A stretch of 64,000 nt of DNA. It comes from Isoetes taiwanensis. Taxonomy: Eukaryota > Streptophyta > Lycopodiopsida > Isoetales > Isoetaceae. The position numbers and the translations under genes are program-made. The notes below the pieces were generated by a model. That model did no database searches. It was not told where the DNA came from and was given only the letters and a program-made list of their open reading frames with translations. The stretch lies in the NCBI GenBank assembly GCA_021234155.1, contig JAJEKV010000384.1:185269-249268 (forward strand). The letters run 5' to 3'. Positions 18,954-59,053 of this stretch are shown here, piece by piece. The first letter of the stretch is position 1. Each line of letters begins with the position of its first letter.

Positions 18954-19083
18954 ACACTACAAGAGGATAGGGGGTATAGTGTCAACCCTTGTGACAAGCC
19001 GTAGGCCTAGTGACAATTTTGTGTCGACTGCTACTATCTTGACACAAAGTGCTTGTGTTGTGTCAAATTTATGTCTAGTACAT
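18954..19083. mobile_element. left end of a CACTA-type element, cut by an LTR insertion
   Basis: It begins CACTACAAGAGGATAG and carries the same subterminal words (TGACAATTTTGTGTC, TTGACACAAA) as the element ending at 18644. It stops at 19083, where a gypsy LTR begins. No transposase is seen. Confidence 0.55.
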
Positions 19084-22004: not shown

Positions 22005-22326
22005 ATATTATTCATAACCTTGTTATAACATAATCTAATGCAAGATAGTAAATTATAATCCATTAAAGAAGGGAAAAGCACATCAAATCTGTCCCTAAGC
22101 CAAGACCAGAATGAAGCCAATTTAGGGCAGAAAAAAATATGATCAATACTTTCATCTTGCAAACAACACGAGTGGCATAAGGCAGAAATATTATTACATC
22201 TCCTTGAGATATAATAATATTTCTTAGGCACTTCCGCAAATTTAAAAGTTGTTCCGACAAAGAAAAGGGGAGCGTTTGTTTTCTTGAGCTGATTGATCTG
22301 CCTGGCAAAGTGCTCCAAGCAATCAT
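22005..22326 (-). mobile_element. L1-type LINE fragment with zf-RVT domain
   Basis: The minus-strand reading contains CNNISALCHSCCLQ, DESIDHIFFCPKLASFW and a WLRDRFDVLFPSL segment. This cysteine and histidine spacing is that of the zf-RVT domain at the C-terminus of plant L1-type ORF2. It directly abuts the truncated gypsy integrase, so one of the two was joined to the other by insertion or deletion. Confidence 0.7.
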
Positions 22327-37140: not shown

Positions 37141-37766
37141 TTTGTTGTTGTTAAAGCGTAAGTTTTATCTGTTTTAGCTATCCTTCCTACAAACCGCTTT
37201 CATTGATTATACTACTTGCATTAGAAAAAATGGGGTCTCCAACCGTCTTCCTAAGAAAATCCTAAGATAAATTCCATGTCATTTTAAGTTACTATTTTAC
37301 CTTTTCCACATCATCACTTTGTCTTTATAACAAGAAGATTTAGAAATCCTTCACATTAGAACCGTATCTTTAGAACCGAAGGCATTATTTTAGCATCCAC
37401 GTGGCCACATTAAAAAAACCAAAAAAAAAAAGCTTTGCTCGTGCGTAGAGCGTTCCTCATTTACATCTTGTTTTTGGATCTACAGGGCACAAAATCGGCC
37501 ATTGAGACTCTCACTCTCCGGATCAACCACAAGATCGACCACCGAAACTCTTCCTCGAGGTAGGTTTTCTACCTCAACCATTTGATCTTATATTTGCCGC
37601 TTGTTCATTTTTTGAAAATGTGAATTCATTTGAATTTGAATTTGAATTCAATTTGAATTTGTATTCAAAATCCTTTGCCTCCAATGAAGAATGCATATAT
37701 ATATATATATGCAATGGAGTTCCAGAGCAGAATTTTTGCTCATTACCTTTACCTTGCCATTCTGCA

Positions 37767-40370: not shown

Positions 40371-41744
40371 TTACATTCTTATTTCACATCAAGAAAGTTG
40401 AAAAGGGCAGCAAAATTTTGTGCAGACTGATTTTACCTCGTTATTTTACCACGTTATTTTGTGCAGGTCAGTAGCTTTTCAATTCTTGCTTGAATTTTGT
40501 ATCCTTCGGTTTTCATTTGTTTTTTTTAGGTTAGATGTCTTCATGATTCTAAAATGTAGCAGAGTATATTTTTAACATTAAGTTTGTTGTTCTTAGCTTT
40601 TGACAATGCAATGTTGTTGTGACAGAGCACAATGAGTCTAGAGTACGATTCTGAAATATTGCCAAGGGCATTGAAGAAGAATTATTGAATCTCTTGTCCC
40701 ATAGAAATATTCAACGTATAGCGTAGATGAATATATTTAATTGATGCATCGTAATTGTGGAATTGAAATGACCAATAGCAGGATTGTAAAGGCAAGTCAT
40801 GTGAATTTAAGAATAAGAAGACAAAGATGAATTGTATTGATGGATACGATCTGTTGCACAAGCCCCAATTGTAGCTCTGTTATATATGTGAACAAATGCA
40901 TCCTTATATGGCTGAGATCTGAATGCTATTCCCAACAAGTCATCTAGATAAAAGCAAACTAGTTGGTCACCATGCTCTGGATACTTATCCTAGAATGATG
41001 ATTAGTATAGTACTTTGAAAAGCTGAATCAATAGTTGTATGCATGGCTTAGAAATCTGCAGTCAAAGACATAGAAGATTTAATACTCAATGCTCCATCTT
41101 ACAATAGCAAACTGAACAAGAAAGAAGAACATTTAATTGTAACTGTAAAAAATCCTCATAGTACTGAAGAGATACATTTCAGAACTGAAGGTTCAAAGTT
41201 TCAAAGTTTCAAAGTTTCAGAACTGAAGTTTCAGAGCTACTAAAGTTTCAACTTGTAGAACCTAGTCAATATAAAATCCTGATCAGCAAAAGAGTTGATT
41301 TCAGGAATTAAACCTGAAGATCCAGCATCCAACAAATTTTTTTCCCTATTATATTATTGATTTAATGCTGACTACATTTGGAAACTTGCAATCTTTACAC
41401 TTGATTTCGCATTCCCTGCGATATCCAATCTTTCTTCCATTCAAAAAGAATTGAAACTCCCCATGCATCCCGAAAGTATCTAATGACTTTCTAGGGTCAA
41501 GTAGCGTCAGGTCCTCCTCCACATTGAGCACTCTATTATCGGCAGCCGCCATAAATGTAACTCGGATCCATGAAAAAGGGATTACCGCCATGTTCTTTCA
41601 CGCTTTCCAATGATAACGTACCATTCTTCCAAAAGCGCTTTCTTGAGATACTTTTGCAGCTGTATGACCCAATGGGAAGTTTAGCACACCGCATTACCTG
41701 CATGAGCCTAGCACCGGTCATTACCGAAGGGATGTCATAATGGG

Positions 41745-43845
41745 CCTCGCAACGCCCGCTAATCCGGGAAGGCGCAAGATTTGGATGGTATGCAGAGTTT
41801 CTCAAGTGGGCCGGGCCCCCAATGGTGCGGTTCTCTCACAAAGACTCTTCAACGGGGCATTGCAAGAAGGCTTCCCCAACTTTGGACTACTAGTAGAGTT
41901 GTGCCCATATACAAAGCTTGGGGGACCCCCACCCAGCCCACCCAACTATCGTTACCATTATGGTCGGGCCTGTCTTTGCCAAGTTGCTTGCCGGGATTCT
42001 TGAGCGGCGATTGACACTTTGGGGCAGGGATGGAGAAGTGTGGGCTCGCACGCAGGCAAAAGCTTCCGCCCCCGGCATTCTACTATTGACCATATCTTCA
42101 CTCTGCGAACACTCATAGAGGATGGTTTAATCGGCCTTGAGAACCAGATTATTGTTGCTTTGTGGGATTTCGCAAAGGCTTTTGGACACAGTGCCTGGGG
42201 ATAAGTTGTGGGCCCGATTTGAGACAGACTGGGACCCCGTCGACTTGCGAGTACTGCTATATATGCAGACTATATGAGGCTTGCTCCGGTCGTCTCACAC
42301 TGTCGGGGAGCCCGTTGTTAGTAACATTGGGGTGCCAAGGCTGCCCTATCCCCGACGCTCCGACTTGTACATTGACCAGCTAGAAGAATGGCTAGCCGAG
42401 CATGGGAGGGGGAGGCTGGTTGATGCACCACATAATCCCGCAACTCATATATGCTGATGATGTTGGCCTGCTCGCATATACCCCAGAGGACATGCAACGC
42501 CACTGGATGCTTTTGGACACTTTCTGCCAATTTTACGACATGAGTTAACTTGGCCAAGACAAGGGTGCTGCTGGTCCCATCATCTCGGCACCCACGTCTT
42601 CCCTCATTCACTTACCAGAGGCAGGTAGTGGAGGTGGCTCAGTCTTATAAGTATTTGGGCATTGAGTTTTCTACTACCACACTTTGGGATGCATCCATCA
42701 GGTTACGGGTCACCTGCAGGTCGGAAAGCCCTGTATGCAATGCAAAACAACAAATCACAAGGCAGAGTCAGTATGCATGGGGTCACTGTGCACACTTGTT
42801 CAGGGCCTTGGTTGAACCGGTCCTCCTCTATGGGGCGTATGTGGGGGGCCCGATGATATCCCTCACCACTTGGAACGATCTAGAGCAGTATGTAAAGCTT
42901 TCTTGGCGGGCACCGGGAGTGAAATCCACGGTCCCATATCAGATCTTGCCCAAGAGACAGGCTTCCTTCCATTCTGAGGGTCTGTATTTGGAGCGTCACA
43001 TTATTTACTTCAGAAGGTGGTGGCTATGGATGAAGCCCGGCTGCCCAACCTTGCTTTGGCAATGGCGATGGGCCGGCGACTCAAAGCCTGCTTGGAAAGA
43101 CAAGCAAGCCCGGTGGTTCGCTATGGAATGTGCGAGGCACCGCAGATGTGGATCGGTGCATACACCAGGAAGCAGCGCTGAAGGCGATACTTGGATGCTT
43201 GCTTCATGGGCAAGCTTTTGGGATCAGAGGCCTGTCACATGTCAAAGTGGCAAATTATCGACGGCGAGGTTAATCCCATGCTCACGAGGGGCCCACACCA
43301 CTACCCTGCGCACCCGTCTACCCATGAAAAAGCGCGGGGTGATTGCTTCCCCGCCACCGACAGTGCACACCACCTCCGCATTGGAGAGCGGGGAGATGGA
43401 TTCGGGAGCGGCGTGAGGACGCAGTCTGTCGATCATCGGCAGGCGCCATTGAGGATGAAAGTCGCGCCCTCGGGCCCGTCGGCGATACGGGCATATCGGG
43501 CTCGGTATGCTTCGGTTAGTTGTGCTTATCGGGCCTTGCATGAGCTCTTGAGCACGCCCTCTGTAGGCTTGTTGGGATCGTACCTCCGGGAGGTAATGGA
43601 TACGCGGACTCCGGTTATGCCCCCGTCCGACATTAACCTGTTGCATACTTGTGATTATGTATATAATCATGCAAGATGTCGGCATCCTTATTGCTACTAA
43701 GGTTTTCCCCGAAAACCCTTTGGGGGCGGGGGTTTTAATCACGGTAGTAATCGCTTCTTTGCTCTCTCTCTTTGTACTTGGGTCCCATAGGCGGTTGGTC
43801 TCCGTGGACGATAAAATCATATTCTATTCTATTCTATTCTATTCT
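41745..43845 (+). mobile_element. LINE, 5'-truncated, with (ATTCT)n tail
   Basis: Reverse transcriptase is readable through several frames: RVVPIYKA and a VGPVFAKLLAGILERRLT segment at 41885-42010, a FRPRHSTIDHIFTLRTLIED segment at 42063-42122, and VALWDFAKAF near 42153-42185. The catalytic LIYADDVGLLAY follows, with YADD at 42450-42461. The thumb-side block YKYLGIEFSTTTLWDAS is at 42640-42690. The 3' UTR holds GGGTCCCATA and GTGGACGATAAAA, then ATTCT repeats at 43821-43845. It lacks ORF1 and the endonuclease. It lies inside the minus-strand gene B, whose coding sense is seen on both sides. Confidence 0.8.
43821..43845. repeat. (ATTCT)n tail of plus-strand LINE
   Basis: Five ATTCT units directly after the LINE 3' UTR. 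It is the same unit, in LINE sense, as the tail at 32041-32068. Confidence 0.9.
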
Positions 43846-45559
43846 TTCAATAAAATAGTTGCAATATAACATTTGCTTAGTCAACCTGTATCTGCAAAAA
43901 AATGGTGAACTTTTAGAAATAGTCTTAGAAATGGTGAATCTGTATCTGCAATAGTCTTAGAAATATACATATTACCTAAAAATGAACATATTTGTTGCAG
44001 CCATGCATTCAATAATTTGGCCTCCACTTTCATGCTCCCTCCGCATCCAATCAGCAAAAAATAAGCCTTCTAATGTCTTGGTTGTAACGTGATTACACGT
44101 ATATGTTTGAGGAGCAACCTTAAACGATTCAGATTGAAAGAAGAAGTAAAATACGTTAACTGGCAAAAACACTTTGCTGGCACATCTAACTCCACCACTT
44201 TCTGTGAGGGTCCTATAGACTTCTTTTGTCAGATGTATACGATAGGTTGTTAGTACTTTCTCGATCCACGTAATTCAGCACCCATGGATTTTTAAGTTTG
44301 GGGGACCGATCTCCACATGTTTTTCTATGCGCCTTGCGAATCTTGTATAGTGGAATTTATGAAACCGGATGCCTTCATCATGCAGACTTTTCCTTGAAAA
44401 ATCCTGAAATAATAGCTGCCCTATCTTATAATGGTAGACTTCAAGGACGCTTGTAATGCTCTGAGCTGAAACTCTATCAACAAAGTCAGAGGAGGAAATG
44501 TAATTGGCTTCAAGTTTAGGACATGATGACTTCCCTGCAATTGACTCCTTTGCCATTTCACGTGGATTGTAAGCATGCTCACAACAAAAAAAAAGAACCT
44601 TCTTACCACCATGACTAAATACAATGTCTTTTACTCGTCCCTTCCAATGAGTTGAGAGGTCATTTAACCTGGACTTATCCACCTTATGCTCACCAGCTGT
44701 TCGAGGCATCATGATAACCCATGAACCAATTGAAACACGAAGTTCAAGCCAATCACCCTCACTTTTCTGATTACGCACAATAACTGTATCTAGACCAGAC
44801 CTAAGCATTGACATGACCTGCAGACAACAAAACAAGAATCTGAGCAACAATTTTGTCATGCAAAATGATAAGCGAAGCACTGGATTTTTGAGAACTAAGC
44901 ACTAGCTTCAATCGATATTAACATTGCTGTAGCAACTAGCTCCACATGAATTGAAAGCTTTAAATTCTCCCCAAATAACTTGGCCCACTACTAACTAATT
45001 TTATATGTGAATACTCATTTTACATCACACAGGACTCAGAAATAACAGAGGAATTGGCTTGCCAAGAGAGAAATGTAATAATGTAAAAAACCAAAATTAA
45101 AAGCAAAGCAAAACTGGATTACAGCAAAGATACAAACTGTAGCATGTAGCAGAAGAGAAGCAAGTTGTTTCTTAAAAAACCAGCTTCAGAACACTTCAAT
45201 CTTAATGCATATGAAAGAATGAAATGGCATGTTAAGCTCATTTAGATACACATAATTATCTGAAACCCAAGCTTAAAACTTCTATCAATGCCTATTCAAG
45301 AATGATTGAAATGGATCTCAAAGATTAGGACAAATTTGGCTCTCACGCAATGGAATGGGATTGTAGAACTCTATCAGGGCAACCTCTGCTATCGCTATAC
45401 CAAAGGCAGTGTTACAAACATGATTTTTTTTTTATGTAAACTAGCAAGTCACACCTGATTTGTTTTGATGCTCCTCCAATCAAAATCTGTAGATGAACCG
45501 AGTGGATGAATCGGAACTCCTTACCCCTTCTTTACGCCTCAGAAAGCCTAACCCAAACC

Positions 45560-45591
45560 ACATTAGGTGGATTTGGGGTCTGAAAATGGCC
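45560..45591. repeat. left terminal inverted repeat of the candidate element
   Basis: It contains GGGGTCTGAAAATGGCC, matched exactly and inverted at 59021-59037. The outer part ACATTAGG is also matched at the right end. Confidence 0.6.
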
Positions 45592-45939
45592 CTTATCTTG
45601 GGCTAAAGATTTCCCGTCGGTCGCCCGGGACCAATCAGGTTTAGCGCCTTTTTCGAAAGTCGGTATTACTTGGCGGGGTAGAAGGATGAAGCGGGCTTAC
45701 TTGGCATCCACATGGCGTATTTTCATAGGGGATACTGCGCTTTTATTGCAACCATTTTAATGGCGTATTTTTTGAGATTAACCCGCCGCCCAAAATAATG
45801 GGTGACTTTGACCGCCTCTTGTCGGCGTCACCAACTCCTTGTCAAATTTTGGCCAAACCTCAGTCTGTCACTCCGGGCCTCGTGCATCCTCTCCGCCTTC
45901 ACTCCTCATCCGCAATCCATGTCTCCTGTAATTTTCTGT

Positions 45940-46860
45940 GTTCTTGCCCCATTTGAGAACTCCCAAGGTCAAGAAGTGGGAGGTTTTGTCTCAATAGGGT
46001 TCAGTGGGTGAGTATCTGCCATCAGCGAGGGGACATAGAGTTAAGCGACAAAAGGCGATCGGGGCGATGCGGACACATTGGATAGGTAGGATAAAAGAGT
46101 TCAAGTTGAATTCTAGCGGCGAGGAAAGTGGAAAGTATAACAATACGACATGCATATACCCCTTCGATATGGCCAAAGAGCTAATCTCCACCAAAAGCAG
46201 CTTCCCAAAATTGCCCTTAAATGGTAACCACCTTAAACGGATCACCCGGCGAAGCTGGCTTGTCTACTTAGCGCGTAGAGATAGTTTAGCGTCGTGTGAT
46301 CTCTTCTCTCATTTCTTTTCGTTGACGCGTGTTTACAAACAAATTTATTGTGCGGGTTTATGTTTATCGGGGCGTCGTGGATGTCATTCCGGCCCGAAAG
46401 TATTAGTAGTGTACTTGTGGGTGTATCACATAGACATCGGAATTGTCCTTTTCAAGGTATGGATGCGGTGACCTTGCGGGGTATAGGCATACGGTTTTAC
46501 GGACATGATTATAGCGTAAAGGTCGGGGAAACCGAGCTTGAGGGCGGTTGAATTGCCCCCTTTAAGTGAACTTTGTAAGCCCGAGACTAATGAGAACAAT
46601 GTAATTGCAATGAAGAAATGCATGGCTGACGAGGTGCAAGCGGAATGTGCAGAAACGGGGCGTGAGGATGAGTTTCAAAATCTTCACCGTTTGAGGTATT
46701 TGCTAACATATTCCGGATGGCGCGGGGAAGTTCAAAAGCTCAAGACATATCGTGCTTTCTCCCCCCTGCCGATTTTGTGGATGGCTTATTTTTGGTTCCG
46801 ACCAGGATGTTCGATTCCACGAATCATCCGGTCAACTAACAGAGGTCCGGCGTAGTTAAG
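45940..46860 (+). pseudogene. gene B': second copy of the BAH-like protein
   Basis: The protein matches gene B in two blocks. Block one (about 45980-46210) has FVSIGFSG, then THWIGRIKEF and a FDMAKELISTKSSFPKL segment, against VSIGSWV, THWKGRVKDI and REMAKESIAGKSSCPKL in B. Block two (46350-46550) has FIGASWMSFRPESISSVLV and a GIGIRFYGHDYSVKVGE segment, against YISSSDFVDRVSAQSITSVLE and EGIRFHKFHYTRFARRIE. Between them is a 130-bp stretch without similarity that carries GTCGTGTGATC. It may be an intron or a small insertion. The C-terminal half of B is not recognisable here; 46550-46860 stays open but differs. Frame changes between the blocks show decay. Confidence 0.5.
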
Positions 46861-47396
46861 TCCTCCTTTAAGTTCAGATACTTTCTTCCAAAACAATATT
46901 TATCGTTAATTGTCAACTAGAGCGAAGGAAGCGAGAAAAAGAGAGGTTTTACAACTTTTTGGGAGCCGTTTGAGGACCATAATAGACACTTTCCGATCAC
47001 GGTGGATATTCGAGTATGGAGAGGGAGGAAGTCATTTATCGGCCACCATGGAAAGTGAATGGCCATTATCCGAGAACTAAGAGTGCTAATGGAGGCAGAG
47101 GAAAATTCTGGACGACTTCCATTATTTTATTGATGGCATTAGGGTTGGTTTAGGCAAGAGGAAATGTAAAAGTTTAGTGAGTTCGCGATCAACAAGAAAT
47201 TGTCTATCGGCTAAGCGCTTTGAATCTCGGTTTTTATTTGTGTTTTTTGTCTCGATGTTTTAGGGTTTCGTATTTTGTCCGATATTTTTTAGGGTTCCGT
47301 ACAATTATTTAAAACGTTACCATCATATTTTACTTTAACATTTTTTTTACTATTTATCTCCCGCGCGGTTGTCCCCATTTTTGTCGGTGTTCGTAG

Positions 47397-47404
47397 TATA
47401 AAAG
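47397..47404 (+). promoter_or_regulatory. TATA box of H3-like gene copy 2
   Basis: TATAAAAG lies 27 bp before the ATG at 47424. That is close, so the leader would be very short or the start site lies downstream of the usual distance. Confidence 0.45.
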
Positions 47405-47423
47405 CGCCATCCGCTGAGAAGCC

Positions 47424-48205
47424 ATGGCAAGAACTAAGCAAACGCAAGGATCCATCAGGTGGTGTAAGGCGGTGATTACATTAGTCCGCCTTCTTCATCC
47501 GACTCCCGAAGTCTCGATAGAGATTCTCCTCCTCCGACCATGCCCTAACGAAGACCGGAAAAAGAAATCCGCGACAGACCGGGGCGGAGAAGCAGCCCGG
47601 AGTAAGTAGGGAGGTGCACTCCGGTTCGAGACAGAGGACAAAAATGTGAGACCGGCGAGCAGAATATGATGCCGGATTAGTGGGCAGCTGCCTCTTCTTG
47701 CCTCTTCCTGCTCCTCCTGTTCCTCCTGTGGAGGTGCCAGACCCAAATCGAGGAGGAGGCCCACCTCGAAAGGGAAGGCGACCAGGAATGTGAGGAGACG
47801 GCCGGAAGAGTCAGCCGAGGAACAGCTCGCAGATGCTGGGGAGGAGGCGGCCGGAAAAGAGTCGGCCGAGCAAATGTGCTCCAAATGCTGGGGTGGGTGA
47901 GGGTAGAGGCGGAAGCGAAGAAGGCCTGGTGATAAAAGCAGCGAGATTAAGAAGCATCGAGGGAAGAGCTTGAGATGGTCATTCTGGGCGTCTCCCATTT
48001 GCCGAGTGCGGAGAGAGATTGCAAGAGTGTGGTGCGCGGCATCATACATTCTGAGAATTCAAGCAACTGCCTTAAATGCTCTTCAAATGGCTTCGAAGCG
48101 GTTGGTGTCGGGTCTGTTCGAGACTCATGACTTGCGGCCAATACATGCCAAGCGGTATTTGTCATGCCCAAGGACATGCGCCTCGTCACGCATAAAGGGA
48201 TCCCT
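47424..48205 (+). pseudogene. histone H3-like gene with long tail (degenerate), copy 2
   Basis: It opens with MARTKQT, identical to H3, then changes frame at once. A long tail follows, in its last part basic and in one frame with the fold from about 47728 (RPKSRRRPTSKGKATRNV). The histone fold reads in a single frame at about 47925-48150: RRKRRRPGDKSSEIKKHR matches H3 KKPHRYRPGTVALREIRKY. CRVRREIARVW matches FQRLVREIAQDF. LNALQMASKRLVSGLFETHD then IHAKR matches MALQEACEAYLVGLFEDT then IHAKR. A one-base shift then restores FVMPKDMRL (H3: VTIMPKDIQL). Two stops lie in the tail at about 47900. A chromatin role is expected for the parent family. It lies inside the candidate TIR element between B' and the coiled-coil genes. 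Confidence 0.75.
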
Positions 48206-48470
48206 AGTACTATGGTCAAAATTTTATGGCTGAATACAACAAGAAGAAAGACCCCCGGAAAAAAGGCCGTGAAGTGCCTTTGTGTTTTTTCATATGTATA
48301 ATATTTCTTAATGCAATGGCTTTATAAGCTTAATCTCTTAGTCCATTTCTTTCTTAGAAGCCTAGCTTCGCACTTTGTATTTTTTTTTTAATGTTATACG
48401 TGAGGATCACAATGACGACAAGCATTGTGCTTTTTGTTGCACATAGTAGTCTTGGCGTCGTGTGATCCAA

Positions 48471-48494
48471 CCCTAACCCTAACCCTAACCCTAA
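48471..48494. repeat. (CCCTAA)4, vertebrate-type telomere repeat
   Basis: Four perfect CCCTAA units sit next to GGCGTCGTGTGATCC at 48454-48468. Most land plants have CCCTAAA telomeres, so the six-base unit is unexpected. It may act as a telo-box-like promoter word for the gene starting at 48571. Confidence 0.9.
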
Positions 48495-48570
48495 AATGTA
48501 CGGACAAATCTCCCACAAAATTTGTGTCCCCTTTCATAATCGACAAACGGCCTACTTGAGTTCAAAAGTG

Positions 48571-49174
48571 ATGGCATCAGCTCCTAAACATCTTCTTGTT
48601 TTCGTCGTTTGCTTCGCCATGGATTGTTATGTGAAGTTCACGGAATGGTATGCATCCCCCTCATGACAACGAGGAATTTGCGCCGACTGCGATTTATCCG
48701 TTCTATTGCAAGGAGTTGGACATCATGGCAAACAGTAGCGAGCTTGGATGCTATCGCGAGGTTGCTTTAGCTTTCACCCAGACCGCTTGGTCTCAGCGCA
48801 CGTCCTTTGCAGATGTCCCTGGCTCGTGGATTCCAAAACCAGCTCTAGAGGAGGCGGCTTCCCATTTGCAAACAGGGAAGATGTTTTTCAAGAATGCTTG
48901 CATACGGGCTCCTCTCGGCTGCGTCCTTGTGCTTAAGAAGGTATCTTATTTCTCTTTGGATTTTGCATTTGCTAGTTATTGCATTACGCTTCGGCCAAAC
49001 CGAAGATACACTGGAAACAATGAAATCTTTAAGCCAAGGGGGTCTGTTATGTGTGATGATCTTGACTATAGCGTAGAAATGGAGATAGATCTACAAGAAG
49101 AAGAGCAAGAATGTAGGAGTTTAGCCGGACCTTGGCCTTGGGTGAACCAGAGGAGGGAGATGATTCGAAGGTGA
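48571..49174 (+). pseudogene. unknown coding stretch, frameshifted
   Basis: An ATG at 48571 gives MASAPKHLLVFVVCFAMD and a YVKFTEW segment. One base later the frame from 48650 continues for 174 codons with KELDIMANSSELGCYREVA, SWIPKPALEEAASHL and an acidic end MEIDLQEEEQEC. GTATCT at about 48940 could be a splice donor. No domain is recognised. It opens, like the small tandem genes, with MAS, and lies 77 bp after the telomere-type repeat. It could be a real multi-exon gene with one indel, or a pseudogene. Confidence 0.35.
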
Positions 49175-49362
49175 TGAGGATGGGATGAGGATGAAAAAGA
49201 AGTTGTCCCGACATAACGCCAATTTTAGTGGAAGGCAAAGAATACTTATTGCTAAGTGATATCTTGAGGAACCCGTCTATGTTACTTAATGTGTGCTAGG
49301 GAAGACGAGCTTATATAAGATTACCTTGGCGAATGGGTAAACTTAGGCCTAGATTTTGAAGA

Positions 49363-50032
49363 GGATTTGGACAAAGAGATGTTTGAAGTATCTAATTATA
49401 CCGGCAATGCTATAAAGCTTAAAGAAGCATATGAGAGGTTGGAGTCTCGATTTGCTCAAGATGAGGCGAATCTACCAACGGAAGAAGAATTCCAGCGTCT
49501 CCGCAAAAGCGCCAACAGGATCTAGGTGTTTACAAAGGCCCTTCATCAATCGCGGCAAAGATAAGCCCGGGTAGATGAGGATAAATGTGAAGAAGATAAT
49601 CTTGAGGGTTCTTATTTGTGGGAAGTAGATGATTTTTCTTGCCGACATGCACGCGGGGGACAGGAAAGATTGAAGGACTCTACATTGTTAAGATATATCT
49701 CAAGATTCGTTAATGGGGAGATAATCGTCTTCAGCAGAACTTTCAGTCCAAAGGGTGCAGAGTTTGTCTATTACCTCCGTGCATTATGCATGTTCGGGAA
49801 CCATTCCCAATTGGCATCAAACACTGAAAGGGTGATAGCAATTCGGCGGGATGTTGTGTTACAATATTTTGACGACCAAGCCGGTCTGCGGGCGAGCAAT
49901 ATGTTAAATTTTTTAGCTGCTGGCTTGACTCACCCAAGGTTGGAAGCTGGGGTCGATAACATGGAAGTCATTGCCTTGTTGGATCAGTGCGGCAGGGGAT
50001 TGAAAGAGCATGAAATTGACGACGAAGCTTGA
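49363..50032 (+). pseudogene. unknown coding stretch, one frame with a few stops
   Basis: One frame is coding-like from EDLDKEMFEVSNYTGNAIK near 49363, through ERLESRFAQDEANLPTEEE, to the open stretch 49616-50032. The latter has 138 codons: LRYISRFVNGEIIVFS, GAEFVYYLRALCMFG, VLQYFDDQAGLRASNML, and an acidic end HEIDDEA before TGA. Stops lie between about 49520 and 49580. The codons look protein-like but I recognise no family. It may be the 3' exon of the gene begun at 48571. Confidence 0.35.
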
Positions 50033-50268
50033 GAAATTGGAAGTTATATGTTTTCCAACTTGTATCGGTAAAATTATTTATGTCTGATTGTCGCCAAGAA
50101 ATTCTAATAAAAATTATTTTATTTGTATTTATTCACATCACGCGAAATACATCAGTCTGATTTTCTGTCATATCTAGGTTTTCGCGTCGTGTGATATCTA
50201 TCTCGAAGAAATGAAATATTATTGGAAAAAGACAATTAATTTATTTATTCCGCTCGTGTGACTCATGT

Positions 50269-50277
50269 TATAAATAG
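50269..50277 (+). promoter_or_regulatory. TATA box of tandem gene 1
   Basis: TATAAATAG is preceded at 50252 by CTCGTGTGACTCA and followed 85 bp later by the ATG at 50362. The identical word precedes tandem gene 2. Confidence 0.6.
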
Positions 50278-50361
50278 AAGACCGATGTCCACGACCTCCG
50301 ACGCCTTCCGCTACGCGCCATCTTCTACTTCCGAAGCTTCCGCCTTCCACCTTCTCGCCCG

Positions 50362-50770
50362 ATGGCATCATCATCTTCCTCCAGCAAGCGACCACGCCAA
50401 GATAGCACTCCCCAGCCCCCAGTAGTCGCTCTGTGGACATCACCCTTGCGGTGGTGATGAAGAGATTCAAGGAGATCCATGATGAAAAACAACTCTGCCG
50501 CCGAGAACAATGAGGCGGGTCGGACGATTAGCCTTCACGAGGGAGGCTGGCACTTGCAGACGAGCGAGACGTTGAGCTCGTGGGAAACATTCGCCATGTA
50601 CCAAGAGGCGACGAGCCGCAGGGAGGAGGCAGTTGGAAACTGCTCACATGATTTGTGAGGCCTTAGAAGATATGGAGAAGAAGTCCGAGCTGGGAGGATG
50701 AGAACGCTTGACCTTAAACTTCAAGCTGCAGGACATGAAAATCAGCTAGAGGATCATGAAGATCCCTAGC
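50362..50770 (+). pseudogene. tandem small gene 1, coiled-coil type, frameshifted
   Basis: The start is MASSSSSSKRPRQDSTPQPP. After a frame change the conserved block VDITLAVVMKRFKEIHDEK follows, then stops. The block recurs in genes 2 and 4 (VVMKRFKEVHDEN, IVLGVLMKRLKEQDD). Its charged heptad-like pattern suggests a short coiled coil. Function unknown. The unit from promoter to the inverse motif at 50865 is a tandem duplicate of the next unit, with a period near 880 bp. Confidence 0.5.
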
Positions 50771-51171
50771 CGTTGTATCTATCTATTTTTGCTTCAAAGA
50801 AAAGTTTTCTATTTTTTTGCTTCTATCTATCCTGTTGTTCCAATGTATGTTCTGTTTTATTAAAATATCACACGACGCGAAATGCCTTGCTTGCAATTAG
50901 GTAGCAATCAATGGATTTCGCTGCAGATCTCCATGCCATTCTATTTTGCTTCAATGAGAAGTTCTATCTTTAGTTATGTATCAGTAAAATTACTTATGTA
51001 TAGATTGTATCACCGAAATTATCAATAAAAATTATCACACGAGCTTTCTCCGGAAGAAAAGACGTTAGAAGAAGTAACGGTTTTTCACACTGCACGCCGA
51101 AATGTAACGGTCGATTTTCCCGACCCACGGCATCCTTCAGCGCCGTGTGACTCAAGCTACTAATGAACCTC

Positions 51172-51180
51172 TATAAATAG
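51172..51180 (+). promoter_or_regulatory. TATA box of tandem gene 2
   Basis: TATAAATAG is preceded at 51139 by AGCGCCGTGTGACTCA. The ATG is at 51293. Confidence 0.6.
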
Positions 51181-51292
51181 AAGACTTTCTATCTTGCCTT
51201 CGACCTTCGATCCTCTTCCGCCTTCCGCTTTTCTTTCGCTCATCTTCTCCCCCCCTCCCGCCTCCGCCTGGGCCCGCCTTCCCTTTCCTCCG

Positions 51293-51660
51293 ATGGCATC
51301 TTCATCCTCCTCCAGCAGGCTTTAATCGCTTCAGAACTGCTCACGGACATCACCCTTCTTTGTGGTGATGAAGAGATTCAAGGAGGTTCACGACGAAAAC
51401 AGCCGTCTTCACGTCCGAGAAGATGGAGGCGTGGACAGGTTAGAATTCACTAGGGGCTGCCGATGAGCGAGACCTTGAGCTCGCGAAGCAACATTAACCG
51501 TGTACCGAGGCCAATAGCCGTAGGGTCGGTGGCGATTTTAAGCGCACACAACATTTCGCAGCGCTAGAATAAGTGGAGAAGAAGCTTCGAGCCGGGAGGA
51601 TGAGAACGCAAGCTTTATGGCTTTTCAAAGCATACGAGGATCATGAAGATCCGTAGCCAT
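51293..51660 (+). pseudogene. tandem small gene 2, coiled-coil type, decayed
   Basis: The start is MASSSSSSRL and then a stop. A frame change restores VVMKRFKEVHDENSRLHVRED, homologous to gene 1. The 3' flank is also duplicated: a TTTGTTTCAAAGAAAA segment, an inverse motif ACACGACGCCAAATGCC at 51745, and a CTTGCAATTAGGTAGCAATC segment occur in both units. Gene 1 and gene 2 therefore arose by tandem duplication including promoter and terminator region. Confidence 0.5.
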
Positions 51661-52173
51661 TGTATATATATTTTTTGTTTCAAAGAAAAATTTGCTCTAT
51701 TTCTTGCTTCTATCTGTTCTCTTGTTTTGTTTTATTAAAAGATTGACACGACGCCAAATGCCATTCTTGCAATTAGGTAGCAATCAATGGATTTCGTCAG
51801 ATGATCTCCACAACGACACCTCGTTGTATGTATAAATTCATAATTTATTAATGGAAAAGTGTATGTAACACAAATATCTAGCTAGATTATGTGATATAAC
51901 TTCTGTGTAAATGCTAATTTGCATGTGGATGACAACGCCTATTCACATACGTGGATTGTGGATGACAACGTCATGCCAAGGACGTGGCATGCGCGCCACA
52001 ATAACATCAGTTTTTGTACGGCTTGCATACAAGACGCTAGGATATGACGGATCCCATGATGTGAACATAGGCTACCGCTGCCTTAATTGCATGCTATAAT
52101 TTCTTCTCAGAGGATTATTACACAACTTTATCTGGGTATCGCAAACCGTGAGATTCCAACGTATTCTAGTTTC

Positions 52174-52180
52174 TATATAA
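52174..52180 (+). promoter_or_regulatory. TATA box of tandem gene 3
   Basis: TATATAA lies 102 bp before the ATG at 52276. No clear copy of the GTCGTGTGA motif lies just upstream, unlike genes 1 and 2. Confidence 0.45.
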
Positions 52181-52275
52181 ACGCCTGGGAGGCCTTTGTC
52201 TTCTCCCTATCCGCCATCTTCTGTTTCTACCACATCCGCCTCGCCCATCACTCCCTGTTTCTCCCATCACTTTCA

Positions 52276-52700
52276 ATGGCCTCCAGCTCCGCTCCATCCC
52301 CGCCGAGATCTTGTCTCAAGTTTTGGTCAAGGAAATTCGTGAATATTGCCACTGAAGCGGAGGAACGGATCCGCCTTCTAAAAGAAAAAGAATGATGAAG
52401 ACGCCGCCAAGCTGGTTGCGGCAGAGGAAAAGGCCGCTTTCTCATGGAGGAGGTGATTTTAGTGCGCTGATAATCGGCGGGCTGCTTTAGACCGAATTGC
52501 GGCGCCACGAGATATAACCTCCAAGAGAGGCTTAGGGCCGCAATCGGCGGGAGAGGCTGCCCGAGCCCAACTCGATGAGCGGAAGATAAGGTTGCGGAAT
52601 ATGAGAACGTGGTTGGGGCGGTGCAATCATGTTGGAGGAGCAGAAAAAATTATCACCGCCTCCGTGAAGAGCTTGCCCGGCGATCATAGGCATCGGGCTC
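52276..52700 (+). pseudogene. tandem small gene 3, coiled-coil type, frameshifted
   Basis: The start is MASSSAPSPPRSCLKFWSRK, then TEAEERIRLLKEK. With one frame change it continues NDEDAAKLVAAEEKAAF, and later pieces such as KVAEYENVVGAVQS and NYHRLREELARRS are strongly helical and charged. It is more diverged than genes 1 and 2. Similarity to them rests on the MASSS start, layout and coiled-coil pattern. A long T run (52710-52729) follows. Function unknown. Confidence 0.4.
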
Positions 52701-53047
52701 CTCCTAGAGGGGCTTTTTTTTTTTTTTTTAATGTTTGTAATTGGTTTTATTTTTCAATGGGAAAAGTTTTTGACAAATGTACCTAATATTACGCTTCCTA
52801 TTTTTAATTTTCAATATCCGTGGTAGAGAGAATGACAACGGATCACACGGGTTTAAACCCTTCATAGGGTTTTAAAGCTCGTGTGCAGATTTCGCGATGG
52901 TGTGATATACGGTGTAGTTAGAATAGTTATTAATGTGTTCCAAACGGACAAGCACTCATTAATGTGTTCTAGCGGACAACCGAATCCCGGCCGACACGCA
53001 GCGATGCCAAATGAAAGTGTGTTTAATATGTTCAAGCGCTTAATATG

Positions 53048-53055
53048 TATAAATT
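53048..53055 (+). promoter_or_regulatory. TATA box of tandem gene 4
   Basis: TATAAATT lies 92 bp before the ATG at 53140. A TTCGCGATGGTGTGATA sequence at 52891, a degenerate form of the recurring motif, lies farther upstream. Confidence 0.45.
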
Positions 53056-53139
53056 GAGGTCCTTGCATGTGCTCCTTCCACCGGTTAGAGTCTTTGCTCC
53101 TCACTTCTATAATCTTAACGCCCCTCCCATTTGTCATCT

Positions 53140-53635
53140 ATGGCCTCCACATCCTCAACCCGATAATGGAAAACTAAGAGGATAGAACTCCCCTTCCGAC
53201 ATAGTGTTGGGTGTTCTAATGAAGAGGTTGAAGGAGCAAGATGATCTTCTAAAGGAAAACGCCTGCTACAATTCAGCACAGAAGAAGAAGAGAATGAATT
53301 CAACCTTCTCATGCTTCAGAGCCGTGGAGAGGCAAATCAGGCGTTGAATAGAAGGTCGGACAGATGACATGCCCCAACAACCTGACCGAGGTGGTTATGA
53401 CGGCAACGAGGATGCTAATTCAGCAGTAAGAACACGTTGTGCTATTGGGACAGGAGCGGACATGTACAAAGAGATGGTGGACAGATTGGAGGAACGCTTT
53501 GATAGGGGTGATTGCTCGCTTGAGGGAAGAGATGAAGACGTAAGACGCAGGGACGGAGCTGATGATGATGATGAAGATAATGAAGAAGAGCTCGACCGAG
53601 CAACAATGAGTCGTTGTATTTTGTTTTCAATGTAA
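53140..53635 (+). pseudogene. tandem small gene 4, coiled-coil type, frameshifted
   Basis: The start is MASTSSTR, followed by a stop. A change of frame gives SDIVLGVLMKRLKEQDDLLKE, matching VDITLAVVMKRFKEIHDE of gene 1. A further frame at 53369-53635 holds EMVDRLEERFDRGD and an acidic tail (DGADDDDEDNEEELD). Inverse motifs at 53692 and 53769 follow the gene. Function unknown. Confidence 0.45.
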
Positions 53636-53939
53636 CATCTTTCACAACTTTAATCAAAAGTAACCCTTTTTATTATTATCTTGTAAAGCTTCACACGACG
53701 CCAAGCCACATAAATGCAAGCAATAGCTTAACCTTAATTGTTCGCGCCCGTGATGATACAAATAAGATCACACGACGCCGAAGCTACGGCCAGTGCAAAC
53801 AAGGTTGGAGGCAAGTATTCAAGGTCGTGTGAACATGCTACACATTACAAGTATATTTTTACCGATTCTTTGTCTCTTAGATCTCCACTGCTATGTAATG
53901 CTAGTGGGGCCCTAGAATTTTGCCAAGCAACTTTCCGTT

Positions 53940-56060
53940 TTCTCTTCAAAGATTATGCCAATGGTGTTTACGACTCGGGTTGCTCCTTAAAGCGACCTTC
54001 TTGTCGTATTTAGCCATCGCCTTCTATAAAACCACTGGCTATCTGTCTTAGAGGGTTGGTTCCCACATTTCCACCCCTCTTTGAGTGTTACGATGAAAGG
54101 CTATTTTAGCTTGTTTATGCGACTTCTCCATGCCTTGTGCACTCCCACGCTAGGCTTCCATACTTCCTAAAAACCAGGTGCATGAGCCCAAAAGATGTGC
54201 AAGTAGTGCGTGACTTCACTCTCCCCATGCGCCTATGAAAGCTTTAATAAATTTGTTATTCGCTTGTACCTAACATTTCTGCAGATCTTCTTCAGGAGGT
54301 CCATTCTCCCAATGTATGGGAACAATTCAGACAATGCATCCCATGCTTTTTTTTTTCCTCAATGCCGAATCTAACGCCATCATGGCGGTCCTGCTCCGCA
54401 TCAACCAGCAATTTTCCAAATTCATAGACCTTTTCTCCCATCTGGTTTCCGCTCAGAGCCTCTCTATGATTCTTTATGAAGGCCGAGCCATCCCTCCAAT
54501 TGACACCTTACGAGGCACACTTGTTCTTCCTGCCCGCTTCTCATCGAGCTCTAATCTTACATTGCCACCATGCAAACCTGCTTCCGATAGAACATGTTCA
54601 ACTCTACGAATTCCTTCCTCTTCTCTTCTTTGTCTGAAATGTTCCACACTTAATCAAGAGCTCAAAAATATCATCTTGTCGATGATTCTCACAAAGCCGC
54701 AAAGTGCGAGATATGAACCCTCTCTAATGGAATGGGGAAAATGCCATGGAACTTGGGATCTTCTTCTCCTCTATTAGGAGCATTTGCTTGGTTAAGGGAC
54801 AAGGTTGAAACAGTCTTCCCAAGATTTTGACTTCCTTGCATGATTGCAAAGATGCATAACTTTTGCATGTTCCTTGTCCTCCTCCACTTATGTTGTACAT
54901 TGCTTTTCGCTTTTAAATCGACGCCAAGTGAAAAATTACTTTGTAAGATCCATAGTGATCTACTTGCAATTTTTCCCTCCCTCTAATCTAGATATTAGAC
55001 TCGGATGTCATTGATTGAACACCCATTTCAAAACCTCGTGGGTTTCTTTTCTGAACTTTAAAGAGACCTAACCACCAGGTGTCATCTTCTTGATTGACAT
55101 GAGAACCATTTTTCCGCACGCTTCTTTTCCTCGTCCCTCACCTCTACATCTTTTTGTTATTCTTGTTGTTCTTTGATTTAGCATGTGCAATTGCATTCTC
55201 AATTGCTCTATTCATGATGACAACGGATACCCTCTCATACTTCTCAAACTTGGTCGGTTCCATTTCATCCAATTTTATGCAAACTTCAATCTCACCATTA
55301 GTTTCTCAGAATCATAAGTCATAATATTTGACAAGGAATTGTAAGAGAGTAACCAGGTCAACCCAAAGATTATTATGCTCATTCATTCCAACTATATCAC
55401 AACAATCCTTGCCATTCTTATCTTTTTATGGCTATGGCAGACCAAAGACATTCAACGTGGTGCATCTCTCCTAATATGGCATACACCATCTTTGTCCTAG
55501 TAACCCTTGTATTCTCGACAATTTGTGGACGTGGAGCTTAATACTTTTTTGTGCCCATTCTTTTCAACGCCTGTGGAATGGCTTGAATAGAGAACGGTAA
55601 CCAAGCCTACGATGCCTACATCATCACAAACAGCCCAGACATCCGTCGCTTCTAACTTTTGTAGATCTCCCTAGTACCATTTCCAATACCATCTTCTTGA
55701 GAGGAGAGTTGTAGGGGCTGACAAATCATGTCCACTATCTCCCTGCTCGTCGCTAGGTTCTTCACTACGTAACCAAGATTGCTTCTAGTTTCCCCGCATC
55801 TTAACCGCCTTTGCTAGTGTTGTAAACGGACTTTGTGGCCGCGGACCTGGGCCTGAATGCACCTGATCCAAACTTCAGTTCCTCTATCGGTCGATAATGC
55901 TTCTTCCTTTCTCGCAAGCCAAGGGTGTTTTCTTCAAATTTTTAACCTACATTGAAGCCCAAAGTTTGCTCTTTTTCGAGCTCTTGGATCTTTTCTTGCA
56001 CTGCCCTATCACCAATTTGACTTGTCCACTTCAGATCTCAAAGAAGTTTCCTCCCAAGCC
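53940..56060 (-). pseudogene. gene A': transposase-like protein, copy 2, decayed
   Basis: Minus-strand reading aligns with gene A over its length. Near 55900 comes LGLRERKKH, against FGLRQRNKN in A. Near 55360 is a MNEHNNLWVDLVTLL segment (A: LNEHNNLWLDLEGVL), then EVCIKLDEME with the first acidic residue and KYERVSVVIMNRAI. Near 54990-54850 are FHLAS and MYNISGGG (A: FHMASDLK and MYNISNTG). Near 54720-54490 are IPLERVH, ALVRIIDKMI, GIRRVEHVLSEAGLHGG and SIGG. Near 54220-54080 are WGESEVTHYLHI, KYGSLA and GMEKSHKQAKIAF. The order is the same as in A, which confirms the family. Numerous stops and shifts show decay. It points toward B' across the cargo genes. Confidence 0.7.
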
Positions 56061-56510
56061 GTCATTCCTTTCCTTCATCATGTTGGAGTAATGAAGCGAG
56101 AGAAAAAAAGCTGCTGGTTTAAGTTATAATTCTTGTGACAATCGGAAGTAGCTCATCTCAAGGAACTGGGGATTCGATTCCCAATGCCTTCATCCCTCTC
56201 AATCTCTCACAATATCCCAAGAGGCCGAGTTACCGCTACCACAAAATCGACTAAACTTGAAACGTCCCCAAATGACGGTTTTCGCCACTCAACGGATCCA
56301 ATGGATATAAACCGCCATCCGCCCGTGATGTCGATACTTTTGAGCCCCGCATAAGCAATATGTCGAGGTCTAAGTTCTTATTTTTAGACCTCTTTTTGCA
56401 TTGAAGACCGGAGCATATTCCGAGGGCTTGGATCCTTATCCACACATCATTTGAGCTTCCATACCGCATGGATCGCAGACGGCGCGAAATGAATGTGTAC
56501 AATTTGTATG

Positions 56511-57072
56511 CCCCAAAGACAATTCGCCGTGCTTGAGATTCAAGTCCGCATACTAACCTCGCTTTTGAAATTTGCAACGCAGTATATGGAAAAGTCCATT
56601 CTCCTACAATCCATGCTTTTATACAAAAGCAAATTCAAAATTGAATTGTAGGGGGGCGGAAGCCCTGTATTGGGATGAAGTAAAGATCCCGTTATTTAAC
56701 TTTTAAGGCGCAATCGCTAAATACTAAACGAAAGTCTAATACAAAGCTTCAACCTACACATTCAAATTTTGAAATGTAGAAGGCGGAATGGACTCTAAAT
56801 GAAAATAGGCAAGACAAGAATCGGGTGATGCGCATGATTGGTATCCGACAAACCAAGAGACACCGCCATGAGTTGCCTGAGATGCTATAATGCAAGTGGC
56901 TTTTTAGAAGCGCCACGCGTTGCGCTAACTGTCTCGACAACAAGAGAATTAAATACATATGGCGCCATAGATATGCGATTCCCCTTATTCCAAGGGAGAA
57001 TATTCCAAGCAAATGGACGACGGAAAAAAGGGGCGGAAATATGACGTGGAATGGTTGATAGGAGGCCATTTT
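56511..57072. repeat. direct repeat R1 near the right end of the candidate element
   Basis: It shares several blocks with 58501-59029: AAAGTCCATTCTCCTACAAT, GACACCGCCATGAGTTGCC, TTTTAGAAGCGCCACG and a GATAGGAGGCCATTTT end. It stops matching exactly where the TIR core would begin, so it may be an older, broken terminus. Confidence 0.8.
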
Positions 57073-57642
57073 AGTTCATAAAACATAATATAACTTGGAA
57101 TGATAGATATTTTATATGCAAATGGGAGACTATTGATGAGGGACTTGTGTTTAGTTTTAATTTGACAACAAATAAGAAAGTGGATCACACGATGCTTAAT
57201 TTAGTGTGTTCCATTTTTTGTTGCATATGTACTATTCTTTTTGGTGTGATCCTTGAAAAATAATATGCTCTTTTGAAAAGGGATGATGACTTATGTACTT
57301 AAGAGTGGTAACACATGTACAAAGAAAAAAGTTAGGTATTCAAATGGAATTAGAAGCAAAAACTTTTTACATTCAAAATTTTTATGGCCGTATGGCTTTA
57401 CATCATTTTGTAAATTTAAATGCCCTGAGGCTTCAACTATTCACAACAAAAAGCCCGGAGGCTTGCAGTCATATGGTAAGAAGTCGGAGGCAAGCTCCCG
57501 ACTAAGAACAAGGAAAAAATAAGAGGTGCTCTGCCCTAACAAATTTCATTCATCCGCTTCATCATCTGCGCAAAAAAAAAAATAAGAAATAACCGTTAGT
57601 TGAATGCTTAAGAAAAGAAAGAAAACATGCATGTACCATGAA

Positions 57643-57965
57643 CTAACGCCATGAGCTCCTCAAGTCGCTAGATTCGCCTTCAACTTCTTCATCTTCTTCA
57701 TCATCTTCGCTTTTCTCCGCCGGTAGACCACTCATTTTCTCAAGAATCTCCTATCCAGCCTTCAAGAACACTGTGATGAACTCCCTCTCCGAATTTCCTC
57801 TCGATTCTCATTCTCCGATTCCTCACAAAGGAATCGAGGAAGGAATCAGAGGCATTGTGAGCAAGAACCGCGGGCAGCGGAGGGAATCATGAGGGAACAC
57901 CTCTTCCAGCCGTAATAGGGCCTCTTGGAGGACACCTCCAGCTCTTCCAGAGCTGATCTCTTCAT
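57643..57965 (-). pseudogene. possible small acidic-tailed gene
   Basis: The reading from 57965 gives MKRSALEELEVSSKRP and a YYGWKRCS segment. After frame changes it ends with EILEKMS, a segment PAEKSEDDEEDEEVEG and SSWR before TAG at 57643. The SSKRP word and the acidic end recall tandem genes 1 and 4, but the evidence is thin. It lies between repeats R1 and R2. Confidence 0.25.
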
Positions 57966-58160
57966 GGCGATGGACTAGAGAAATTGGGCTGAGGAGGATC
58001 TAGCAAAGATTGGGCGGAGATTGGGGGGAGAATGGGCGCCAATCTAGGCTGGAATAGATATAGGCTGGATTAGACGGAAAATCGAGGGAATGATTCGTAT
58101 TCCAGTCCTATCAACCATCATTACATGCCATTATGTGCATATCTCAAATTTGAGCCATAT

Positions 58161-58266
58161 CTAATATCTTCCTTTTTAACCTTATACCTAAATATCCAAT
58201 ATCTTCCTTTTTAACCTTATTCCTAAATAGCCAATATCTTCCTTTTAACCTTATTCCTAAACCTAT
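58161..58266. repeat. tandem repeat, about 40-bp unit, three copies
   Basis: CAATATCTTCCTTTTTAACC followed by TTATTCCTAAATA occurs three times with small changes. It is a local minisatellite inside the right part of the candidate element. Confidence 0.85.
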
Positions 58267-58500
58267 ATGATTTGAGTTTAACCAGAAAAAATGAACACCG
58301 ATATAATTCAATTTAACATACTATTTAATACCAAGATGCTACGTCACACTATGTCGATAATTGGGATTTAAAAAAAAACACCCAAACCCTCCCGAGAAAA
58401 CCACGTAAGTGCCGACCTCACTTGTGTTTAAGTTTAATTTGACAACAAGCAACTTCCATATGGTAGATCGACGACGCCAAATCAAGATGTGGTATTTTTA

Positions 58501-59029
58501 TGCCCCAACACAACCGCCTGCGTGTGAGCCGAACGTCCGTACTAACTTCGCTTTTTGAAATTTGCAACGTATATGGAAATCGAAAAGTCCATTCTCCTAC
58601 AATCCATGCTTTTATACATTAAGCAAATTCAAATTTGAATTGTAGGGGCGGGGAAGCCTGATTAGGGATGAAGTGAAGATCGGTTAGGCGCAGCCAATAA
58701 AAATGAAAGTCTGATCTGATACAAAGCTTCAACCTACACATTCAACTTTTGAAATGTAGAAGCGGTGACGCCAAGACGCTTACCAAGAGACACCGCCATG
58801 AGTTGCCGGTATGCTATAATGCAAGTGGCATTTTAGAAGCGCCACGTGTTGCATCGTCAGTCCGTCTCGACAACCAATGTAATTAAATACATATGGCGCC
58901 ATGAATGTGCAATCCCCTTATTCTAAGAATATTCCAAGCAAATCGTAATTATGAGAGTTTGGTATCCTAGGTGGTATGGGAAAAAGGGAGCGGAAATATG
59001 ACGTGGAATGGCTGATAGGAGGCCATTTT
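58501..59029. repeat. direct repeat R2, adjoining the right TIR
   Basis: This is the second copy of R1, about 2 kb away. It ends in the right terminal inverted repeat, whereas R1 lacks the CAGACCCC part. Confidence 0.8.
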
Positions 59030-59053
59030 CAGACCCCAATCCGCCCTAATGTT
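59021..59053. repeat. right terminal inverted repeat of the candidate element
   Basis: GGCCATTTTCAGACCCC is followed by AATCCGCCCTAATGT. The inverted complement of both parts is present at 45560-45591. Confidence 0.6.

Follow-up and report, generated by a model that had tools for sequence, protein, structure and literature searches.

The 64,000-nucleotide stretch of the Isoetes taiwanensis genome analyzed here (assembly GCA_021234155.1, contig JAJEKV010000384.1, positions 185,269 to 249,268; called the window, with its first letter as position 1) contains a 13.5-kb transposon with terminal inverted repeats (TIRs). Between its ends lie a histone H3 gene and, directly after it, a second gene termed ORF2 (open reading frame 2), and the same pair of genes is found in Ty3/gypsy long terminal repeat (LTR) retrotransposons of this genome. 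Positions 45561 to 59051 are a decayed copy of a multicopy family, with the following features.

45561 to 59051, plus strand: whole 13.5-kb TIR element, between ...AACCCAAACCA and TTACGCTTACC..., without target site duplication (TSD)
45561 to 45591, plus strand: B-side TIR, CATTAGGTGGATTTGGGGTCTGAAAATGGCC
45998 to 46860, plus strand: gene B', decayed homolog of the gene B at 44.9 to 44.0 kb; end approximate
47423 to 48200, plus strand: histone H3 gene, decayed; MARTKQT start at 47424, H3 fold at about 47838 to 48200
48635 to 50032, plus strand: ORF2-like gene, decayed; best match to LTR ORF2 at 49694 to 49936
50274 to 53723, plus strand: tandem coiled-coil-type genes at about 50.3, 51.2, 52.3, and 53.3 kb
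53950 to 56570, minus strand: gene A', decayed homolog of gene A, putative transposase; bounds approximate
59021 to 59051, minus strand: A-side TIR

A multicopy TIR family carries a histone H3 gene

The original prediction placed a candidate DNA transposon at 45560 to 59053, a span that takes in a single flanking base at its left end and two at its right, and cited a perfect 17-bp inverted block at the two ends. Both claims held. The core, GGGGTCTGAAAATGGCC, lies at 45575 to 45591 (plus strand) and 59021 to 59037 (minus strand), while shuffled sequences contained a mean of 0.02 matches and none of 100 shuffles contained two or more. Across the genome searched (1,658,258,908 bases in 1,110 contigs), the core occurred at 654 places, 332 and 322 by strand, compared to zero for the reversed control. 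Facing pairs 13.2 to 13.8 kb apart numbered 14 among the 100 places listed (counted by eye, window pair included); ten of the other 13 were retrieved, giving a sample of 11 copies with the one in the window. All ten were 13.2 to 13.8 kb long and collinear with the window element apart from insertions and deletions. Identity among the copies, the window copy included, was 88 to 94%, and each copy diverged from the majority sequence by 3.9 to 7.4%. The ends of the family read CATTAGGGCGGATTTGGGGTCTGAAAATGGCC; C192 departs from this at its left end and the window copy at both. One pair of facing cores lies just 5.3 kb apart (G000:C907:3778101-3783441) and is perhaps a deletion derivative.

The proposed search for intact copies found decay in all 11 examined. 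Because the longest frame in the A' region of any copy was 347 amino acids (aa), compared to 864 to 931 aa in intact relatives of A, the family looks dead within this sample.

The predicted H3-like gene was confirmed with PF00125, which matched the window frame at 47907 to 48233 (E value of 1e-8, 35.9 bits) and copy C907a (E value of 2e-11, 44.6 bits) above a cutoff of 26.4 bits. In the frames from both halves of C907a, PF00125 was the sole family above the cutoff, and no viral family, integrase, or gag was found. Searching with H3 by tblastn recovered the fold in 10 of 11 copies (C35a was missed), and MARTKQT was present in nine (missing in C192 and C907c), leaving every copy with either the fold or the start. 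The suggested link between the TIRs and the genes was upheld, as homologs of A and B and the H3 gene recurred between the ends in the examined copies; the repeats bounded A/B-type genes and the cargo was found with A and B elsewhere, the reverse of the two outcomes that the prediction had set against itself. Among the matches listed for 31 cores on contigs C4 to C217, eight had a same-strand MARTKQTA no more than 8 kb inward, six of them 1,853 to 1,864 bp from the B-side core and one at 6,822 bp. The eighth, on C78 at 6,874 bp, was set aside, its codons not being of the TIR type; this pairing used an exact pattern, and its misses carry little meaning. In seven of the nine TIR starts the tail reads MARTKQTARIHP (ARIHP), with isoleucine at position 9, and the other two, including that of the window, are frame-shifted after MARTKQT.

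The four tandem coiled-coil-type genes are present as predicted, but only some are demonstrably a family: genes 1 and 2 are clear paralogs (61% over 105 aa in copy C907c), gene 4 is related to both (E value of about 1e-4), and gene 3 had no match to the other three among the matches listed.

Ty3/gypsy retrotransposons with H3 genes

A genome search with PF00125 returned 8,705 first-look candidates, 150 of which were scored. Fifteen scored 164 to 165 bits, and the two of these that were read are canonical H3; the remaining 135 scored 144 to 155 bits, the longest frame reaching 494 aa, and three of these loci, read with their flanks, proved to be LTR retrotransposons. The complete element C908h (13,231 bp) has LTRs of 1,633 and 1,632 bp (43 mismatches plus 19 gap columns across 1,642), a 5-bp TSD (GTGGC), the primer site TGGTATCAGAGC, and domains for a Ty3 capsid, reverse transcriptase (RT), RNase H, and integrase, with RT-RNase H before integrase. 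It has all the marks by which Ty3/gypsy elements are recognized (LTRs, primer site, gag, RT-RNase H before integrase, short TSD). Between its 5' LTR and gag-pol lie an H3 ORF of 485 aa from stop to stop, with a fold about 75% identical to H3, and an ORF2 of 470 aa. In a second element, C1034, the H3 scored 143.5 bits against PF00125 (cutoff 26.4), and the integrase ends in a chromodomain (PF00385, E value of 1.6e-7, 31.6 bits, cutoff 25.1). This defining trait of chromoviruses was found in C1034 only; the pieces of C908h scanned had no chromodomain match.

A third LTR group, in which MARTKQTA is followed by the H3 fold, an ORF2-like frame, and gag, has a member at the start of the window, whose ORF2 and gag continue upstream of it (L039).

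393 to 1578, minus strand: H3 gene of a decayed third-group LTR element; MARTKQTA start at 1578 to 1556, fold at 710 to 393

A better-kept third-group member, with MARTKQTARIVV, H3, ORF2, and pol, lies at the locus of the A/B element A1045, which splits it. Among 120 of 4,501 matches listed, relatives of the LTR H3 ORF covered at most 43% of the query. For the H3 of the first two LTR groups, an origin from centromeric H3 is unlikely, since loop 1 aligns with canonical H3 and has no CENH3-type insertion. The TIR H3 has a longer loop 1 and was unplaced in an H3 tree most of whose forks stay open. A separate 122-aa open frame (L047, G000:C907:39769700-39770600) has an H3 fold like that of the second LTR group and could be a fragment, a solo gene, or a host variant.

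The H3 and ORF2 pair is shared between element classes

Within LTR elements, H3 and ORF2 travel together. When the best-scoring rows were compared (150 H3 places and 96 ORF2 rows), 38 of the 96 ORF2 rows had a listed H3 place at most 3 kb upstream, 31 of these at 251 to 292 bp, compared to zero in the control and an expectation of 0.03. The pair is standard in LTR elements of I. taiwanensis.

In the TIR element, the gene that follows H3 is a homolog of this ORF2. It matched the C908h ORF2 at 27% over 81 aa (tblastn E value of 1e-6), and a profile of four LTR ORF2s matched TIR copies at E values of 8e-6, 1e-5, and 3e-4, with nothing in reversed controls up to an E value of 10. The third-group ORF2 matched the TIR gene at 34.5% over 110 aa (E value of 9e-7), with matches in 3 of 11 copies at E values of 0.01 or lower. 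As the third-group ORF2 had no match to the ORF2 of the other LTR groups, the two LTR kinds are linked through the TIR gene and through their position. No other ORF2 relatives were found at an E value of 0.01 or lower among 8,000 candidates scored, and Pfam revealed no histone fold in the ORF2 C terminus. With H3 followed by an ORF2 homolog in both Ty3/gypsy and TIR elements, the module is common to class I and class II elements.

The ratio of nonsynonymous to synonymous substitution rates (dN/dS) was used to compare LTR copies, chosen for high scores in a way that favors intact ones and with several dS values above 1. For the H3 fold it was 0.02 to 0.09 in six pairs and 0 in one, with 8 of 15 pairs saturated; ORF2 gave 0.08 to 0.19 in five of six pairs, and the N-terminal extension gave 0.11 to 0.25 in 5 of 15. 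The H3 fold is under purifying selection in the sampled LTR copies.

The tail is retained in part. MARTKQTA in any context is encoded at 2,079 places in the genome, in many synonymous forms, compared to zero for the reversed control. At ten sampled loci, position 9 was K in seven, V in two, and E in one, and position 10 was never S. The TIR family and the third LTR group keep ARTKQTA and not the canonical ARTKQTARKS; the K4 part of the tail is kept, and the K9-S10 context often is not.

A larger group of transposons that insert without TSD

Three A/B elements found elsewhere have open A frames of 931 aa (A1045), 864 aa (A1048), and 877 aa (A1036), with B facing A and no H3 match between their ends. 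The ends of A1045 (8,277 bp) start with CATTAGAAAAAAAATGGGGTCTCCAA, with 26 bp identical, those of A1048 (7,616 bp) with CATTAGAGAAAATATG, and those of A1036 (about 10.1 kb) with CATTAGAGTTT, and no TSD was visible by eye in their flanks. The 13.5-kb family belongs to this larger group, which has CATTAG ends, convergent A and B genes, and insertion without TSD.

A genome search with gene A returned 3,313 first-look candidates (unscored), 81 of which were then scored and gave 86 rows at 41 to 100% identity; 26 relatives were present in the protein collection. Two of the relatives, P0010 and P0018, are on 130- and 298-kb contigs from other sources, and the A/B group is therefore probably wider than the I. 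taiwanensis genome. D471 and D576 are invariant where covered, CxxC and HxCxxH stretches are conserved, and, in the few rows long enough to include it, E835 falls within a QGMEKSH motif, a pattern compatible with a DDE transposase. Gene A is transposase-like only in motif pattern and context, and it matched no Pfam transposase. The "BAH-like" label of B' had no database support, as B matched no BAH domain, no Pfam family at E values up to 10, and no PDB structure.

TSDs had been expected at the paired ends, yet no repeat of 2 to 8 bases was present at the boundary in any of the 11 copies. Shifting the boundaries gave matches of 2 to 3 bases at most, nine of which are the palindromic CAT...ATG of the ends themselves. 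Two natural empty sites both agree with the absence of TSD, and they rule out a CATG target with a 2-bp duplication, an idea prompted by those CAT...ATG ends. Copy C35a interrupts an LTR element within its H3 gene. The flank on the left can be aligned to LTR H3 genes, the match with C908h extends a few bases beyond the junction, and the farther right flank matches C1018a just 3' of H3. By eye, codons run on across this junction, which has one extra G but no duplication. The window copy lies inside an A/B element whose relative A1045 has the undivided site, and the joined flanks align across the junction, which reads CCATTACG in both.

37219 to 45560, plus strand: A/B element without H3 cargo, A on plus and B on minus; A1045 family; A-side end at 37219; interrupted at 45560/59052

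The A and B homologs noted at 37.7 to 44.9 kb are indeed without the cargo, and belong to this separate host element, which is older than or equal in age to the 13.5-kb element that interrupts it. The caution that nested events might have produced the whole picture is correct for this interruption but not for the H3 arrangement, which recurs in the copies. Element A1045 itself sits in the third-group LTR element between the H3 gene and ORF2 (L040-L041). Together with C35a, this insertion hints at a target preference, although two cases prove nothing.

Comparison with known systems

Known classes did not accommodate the TIR family. An assignment to hAT was ruled out by the lack of TSD in all 11 copies (8 bp expected) and of any hAT match in A, and MULE/Mutator (Mutator-like elements), which make a 9-bp TSD, by the lack of TSD and of a MULE transposase domain in A. 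Helitrons were ruled out by the presence of TIRs of about 32 bp and the absence of a Rep/helicase domain in the frames of C907a, and Polinton/Maverick by the lack of a 6-bp TSD and of DNA polymerase B, integrase, or capsid in those frames. Spy and similar TIR superfamilies insert without TSD. The Isoetes element resembles Spy in this respect, and its gene A matched no Pfam transposase. Ty3/gypsy retrotransposons with extra ORFs and chromoviruses are known classes, and the Isoetes LTR elements share their LTRs, primer site, capsid-type gag, RT-RNase H-integrase order, 5-bp TSD, and, in one case, chromodomain. Unlike them, the Isoetes elements place two ORFs ahead of gag, and the first of these encodes an entire histone H3 fold.

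The nearest published case is an H3-carrying hAT transposon of the fungus Pseudocercospora fijiensis and its relatives, with 471 H3-carrying repeats, 8-bp TSDs, and inactivated copies (PMC6710886). It too is a high-copy DNA transposon (full-length set of 9.5 to 9.9 kb), and its inverted ends enclose one or two H3-like sequences. However, the fungal element has a hAT domain and a TSD, and the Isoetes element has neither; the fungal H3 is alone and was captured from a host gene, whereas in Isoetes H3 is accompanied by ORF2 and the pair is shared with LTR elements under selection (PMC6710886). Accessory ORFs common to unrelated retroelement types are described in bdelloid rotifers, but these are enzyme ORFs within retroelements (PMC5408684), in contrast to a histone pair that would have moved from class I into class II elements. 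Literature searches that did not extend to subscription papers and preprints listed no account of LTR elements with an H3 gene, nor of H3 held in common by different element classes, and the main texts of the Isoetes genome papers (PMC8566536 and PMC10541799) do not contain the word "histone."

Possible roles of an element-encoded H3

These results suggest that mobile elements have taken a chromatin protein into their own toolkit. We consider it reasonably probable, judging from sequence, that the H3-carrying TIR family and the module it shares with LTR elements encode an H3 variant that acts in chromatin. In such a scheme, A would act as the transposase that moves the element. The H3 and ORF2 pair would have been transferred from one element class to another, with a retrotransposon the likelier donor and the TIR element the recipient, because the pair is widespread in LTR elements, whereas none of the other three A/B families read has it. 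The encoded histone would have a fold able to enter nucleosomes. Retention of a K4-type tail (ARTKQTA; TIR family, third LTR group) and loss of the ARKS context would favor an active state and help element copies resist H3K9-based silencing. Three versions of this last step are conceivable, a shield against silencing, targeting or packaging together with the LTR machinery, or, for the TIR family, simple cargo, with the shield slightly ahead for the module as a whole. A more ambitious proposal, offered tentatively, is that H3 and ORF2 form a functional, tradable cassette for chromatin control in this lycophyte, used by Ty3 retrotransposons and by a new TIR superfamily that inserts without TSD; the TIR product, with K9 replaced by isoleucine, may act on new copies as a shield or a mark, or may poison methylation at H3K9, and chromodomain-bearing elements may provide their integrase with its own target.

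Several observations weigh against this overall scheme. Selection on H3 was demonstrated in LTR copies only, from a sample favoring intact ones, all 11 TIR copies being decayed, and divergence from the majority among TIR copies is higher in the H3 region (8.9%) than in A (4.4%) or B (4.2%), a pattern that argues against recent constraint on the TIR H3. MARTKQTARK accounts for 1,051 of the 2,079 tail places; at these lysine 9 is kept, which weakens the K9-loss model. The first two LTR groups have a different extension, with no MARTKQTA start in the copies read. The LTR ORF2 profile matched only 3 of 11 TIR copies and did not recover the third group's ORF2 (E value of 1.4). Gene A had no PDB match of note and no Pfam family above the cutoff, hence no Pfam transposase.

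The decay of all 11 copies, their more diverged H3 region, and the three A/B families that do without H3 are what would be expected if H3 and ORF2 were functionless, transduplicated cargo, as in the H3-carrying fungal hAT, which offers a precedent (PMC6710886). This passenger capture is a serious if somewhat unlikely explanation; against it, a conserved gene pair rather than a single gene is involved, common to LTR elements under purifying selection. We regard as unlikely that the module serves LTR targeting or packaging instead of resisting silencing, with element H3 marking chromatin or complexes recognized by integrase or capsid. The C1034 integrase chromodomain and the location of H3 and ORF2 ahead of gag-pol in the same element would fit such a role, but the scanned pieces of C908h gave no chromodomain match, and no integrase or gag was found in the TIR element, judged by the frames of C907a.

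Integration of a virus- or plasmid-like linear DNA with inverted ends, joined without target duplication, could explain the missing TSD, the large size, and an A without a Pfam transposase match. It is nonetheless very improbable given the absence of viral families in the C907a frames, the precise ends of the retrieved copies, the smaller A/B relatives of 7.6 to 10.1 kb with matching ends, and the conserved residues of DDE type in A. Nesting is heavy in the window, and copy C35a is truly inserted in an LTR H3 gene, yet chance nesting of an LTR H3 fragment within the TIR element is contradicted by the copies, in which the same order recurs at ten unlinked sites and MARTKQTA starts 1,853 to 1,864 bp from the B-side core in the six listed, and we give it almost no credence.

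Few host proteins are as constrained as histones, and the silencing of transposons works through histone H3. If a chromatin role for the element-encoded H3 is correct, elements that keep their own H3 gene over the long term would represent an unusual strategy of counter-silencing or targeting, and manipulation of chromatin by transposons would become directly testable. One gene pair common to a retrotransposon and a DNA transposon is unusual in itself, as is a TIR group inserting without target duplication.

Two further regions of the window contain retrotransposon-like sequence. Positions 19081 to 22006 hold minus-strand LTR and pol remnants with 72 to 82% DNA identity to the H3-carrying LTR elements, and positions 42544 to 43416, inside the interrupted A/B element, hold frames that by eye resemble a non-LTR retrotransposon reverse transcriptase.

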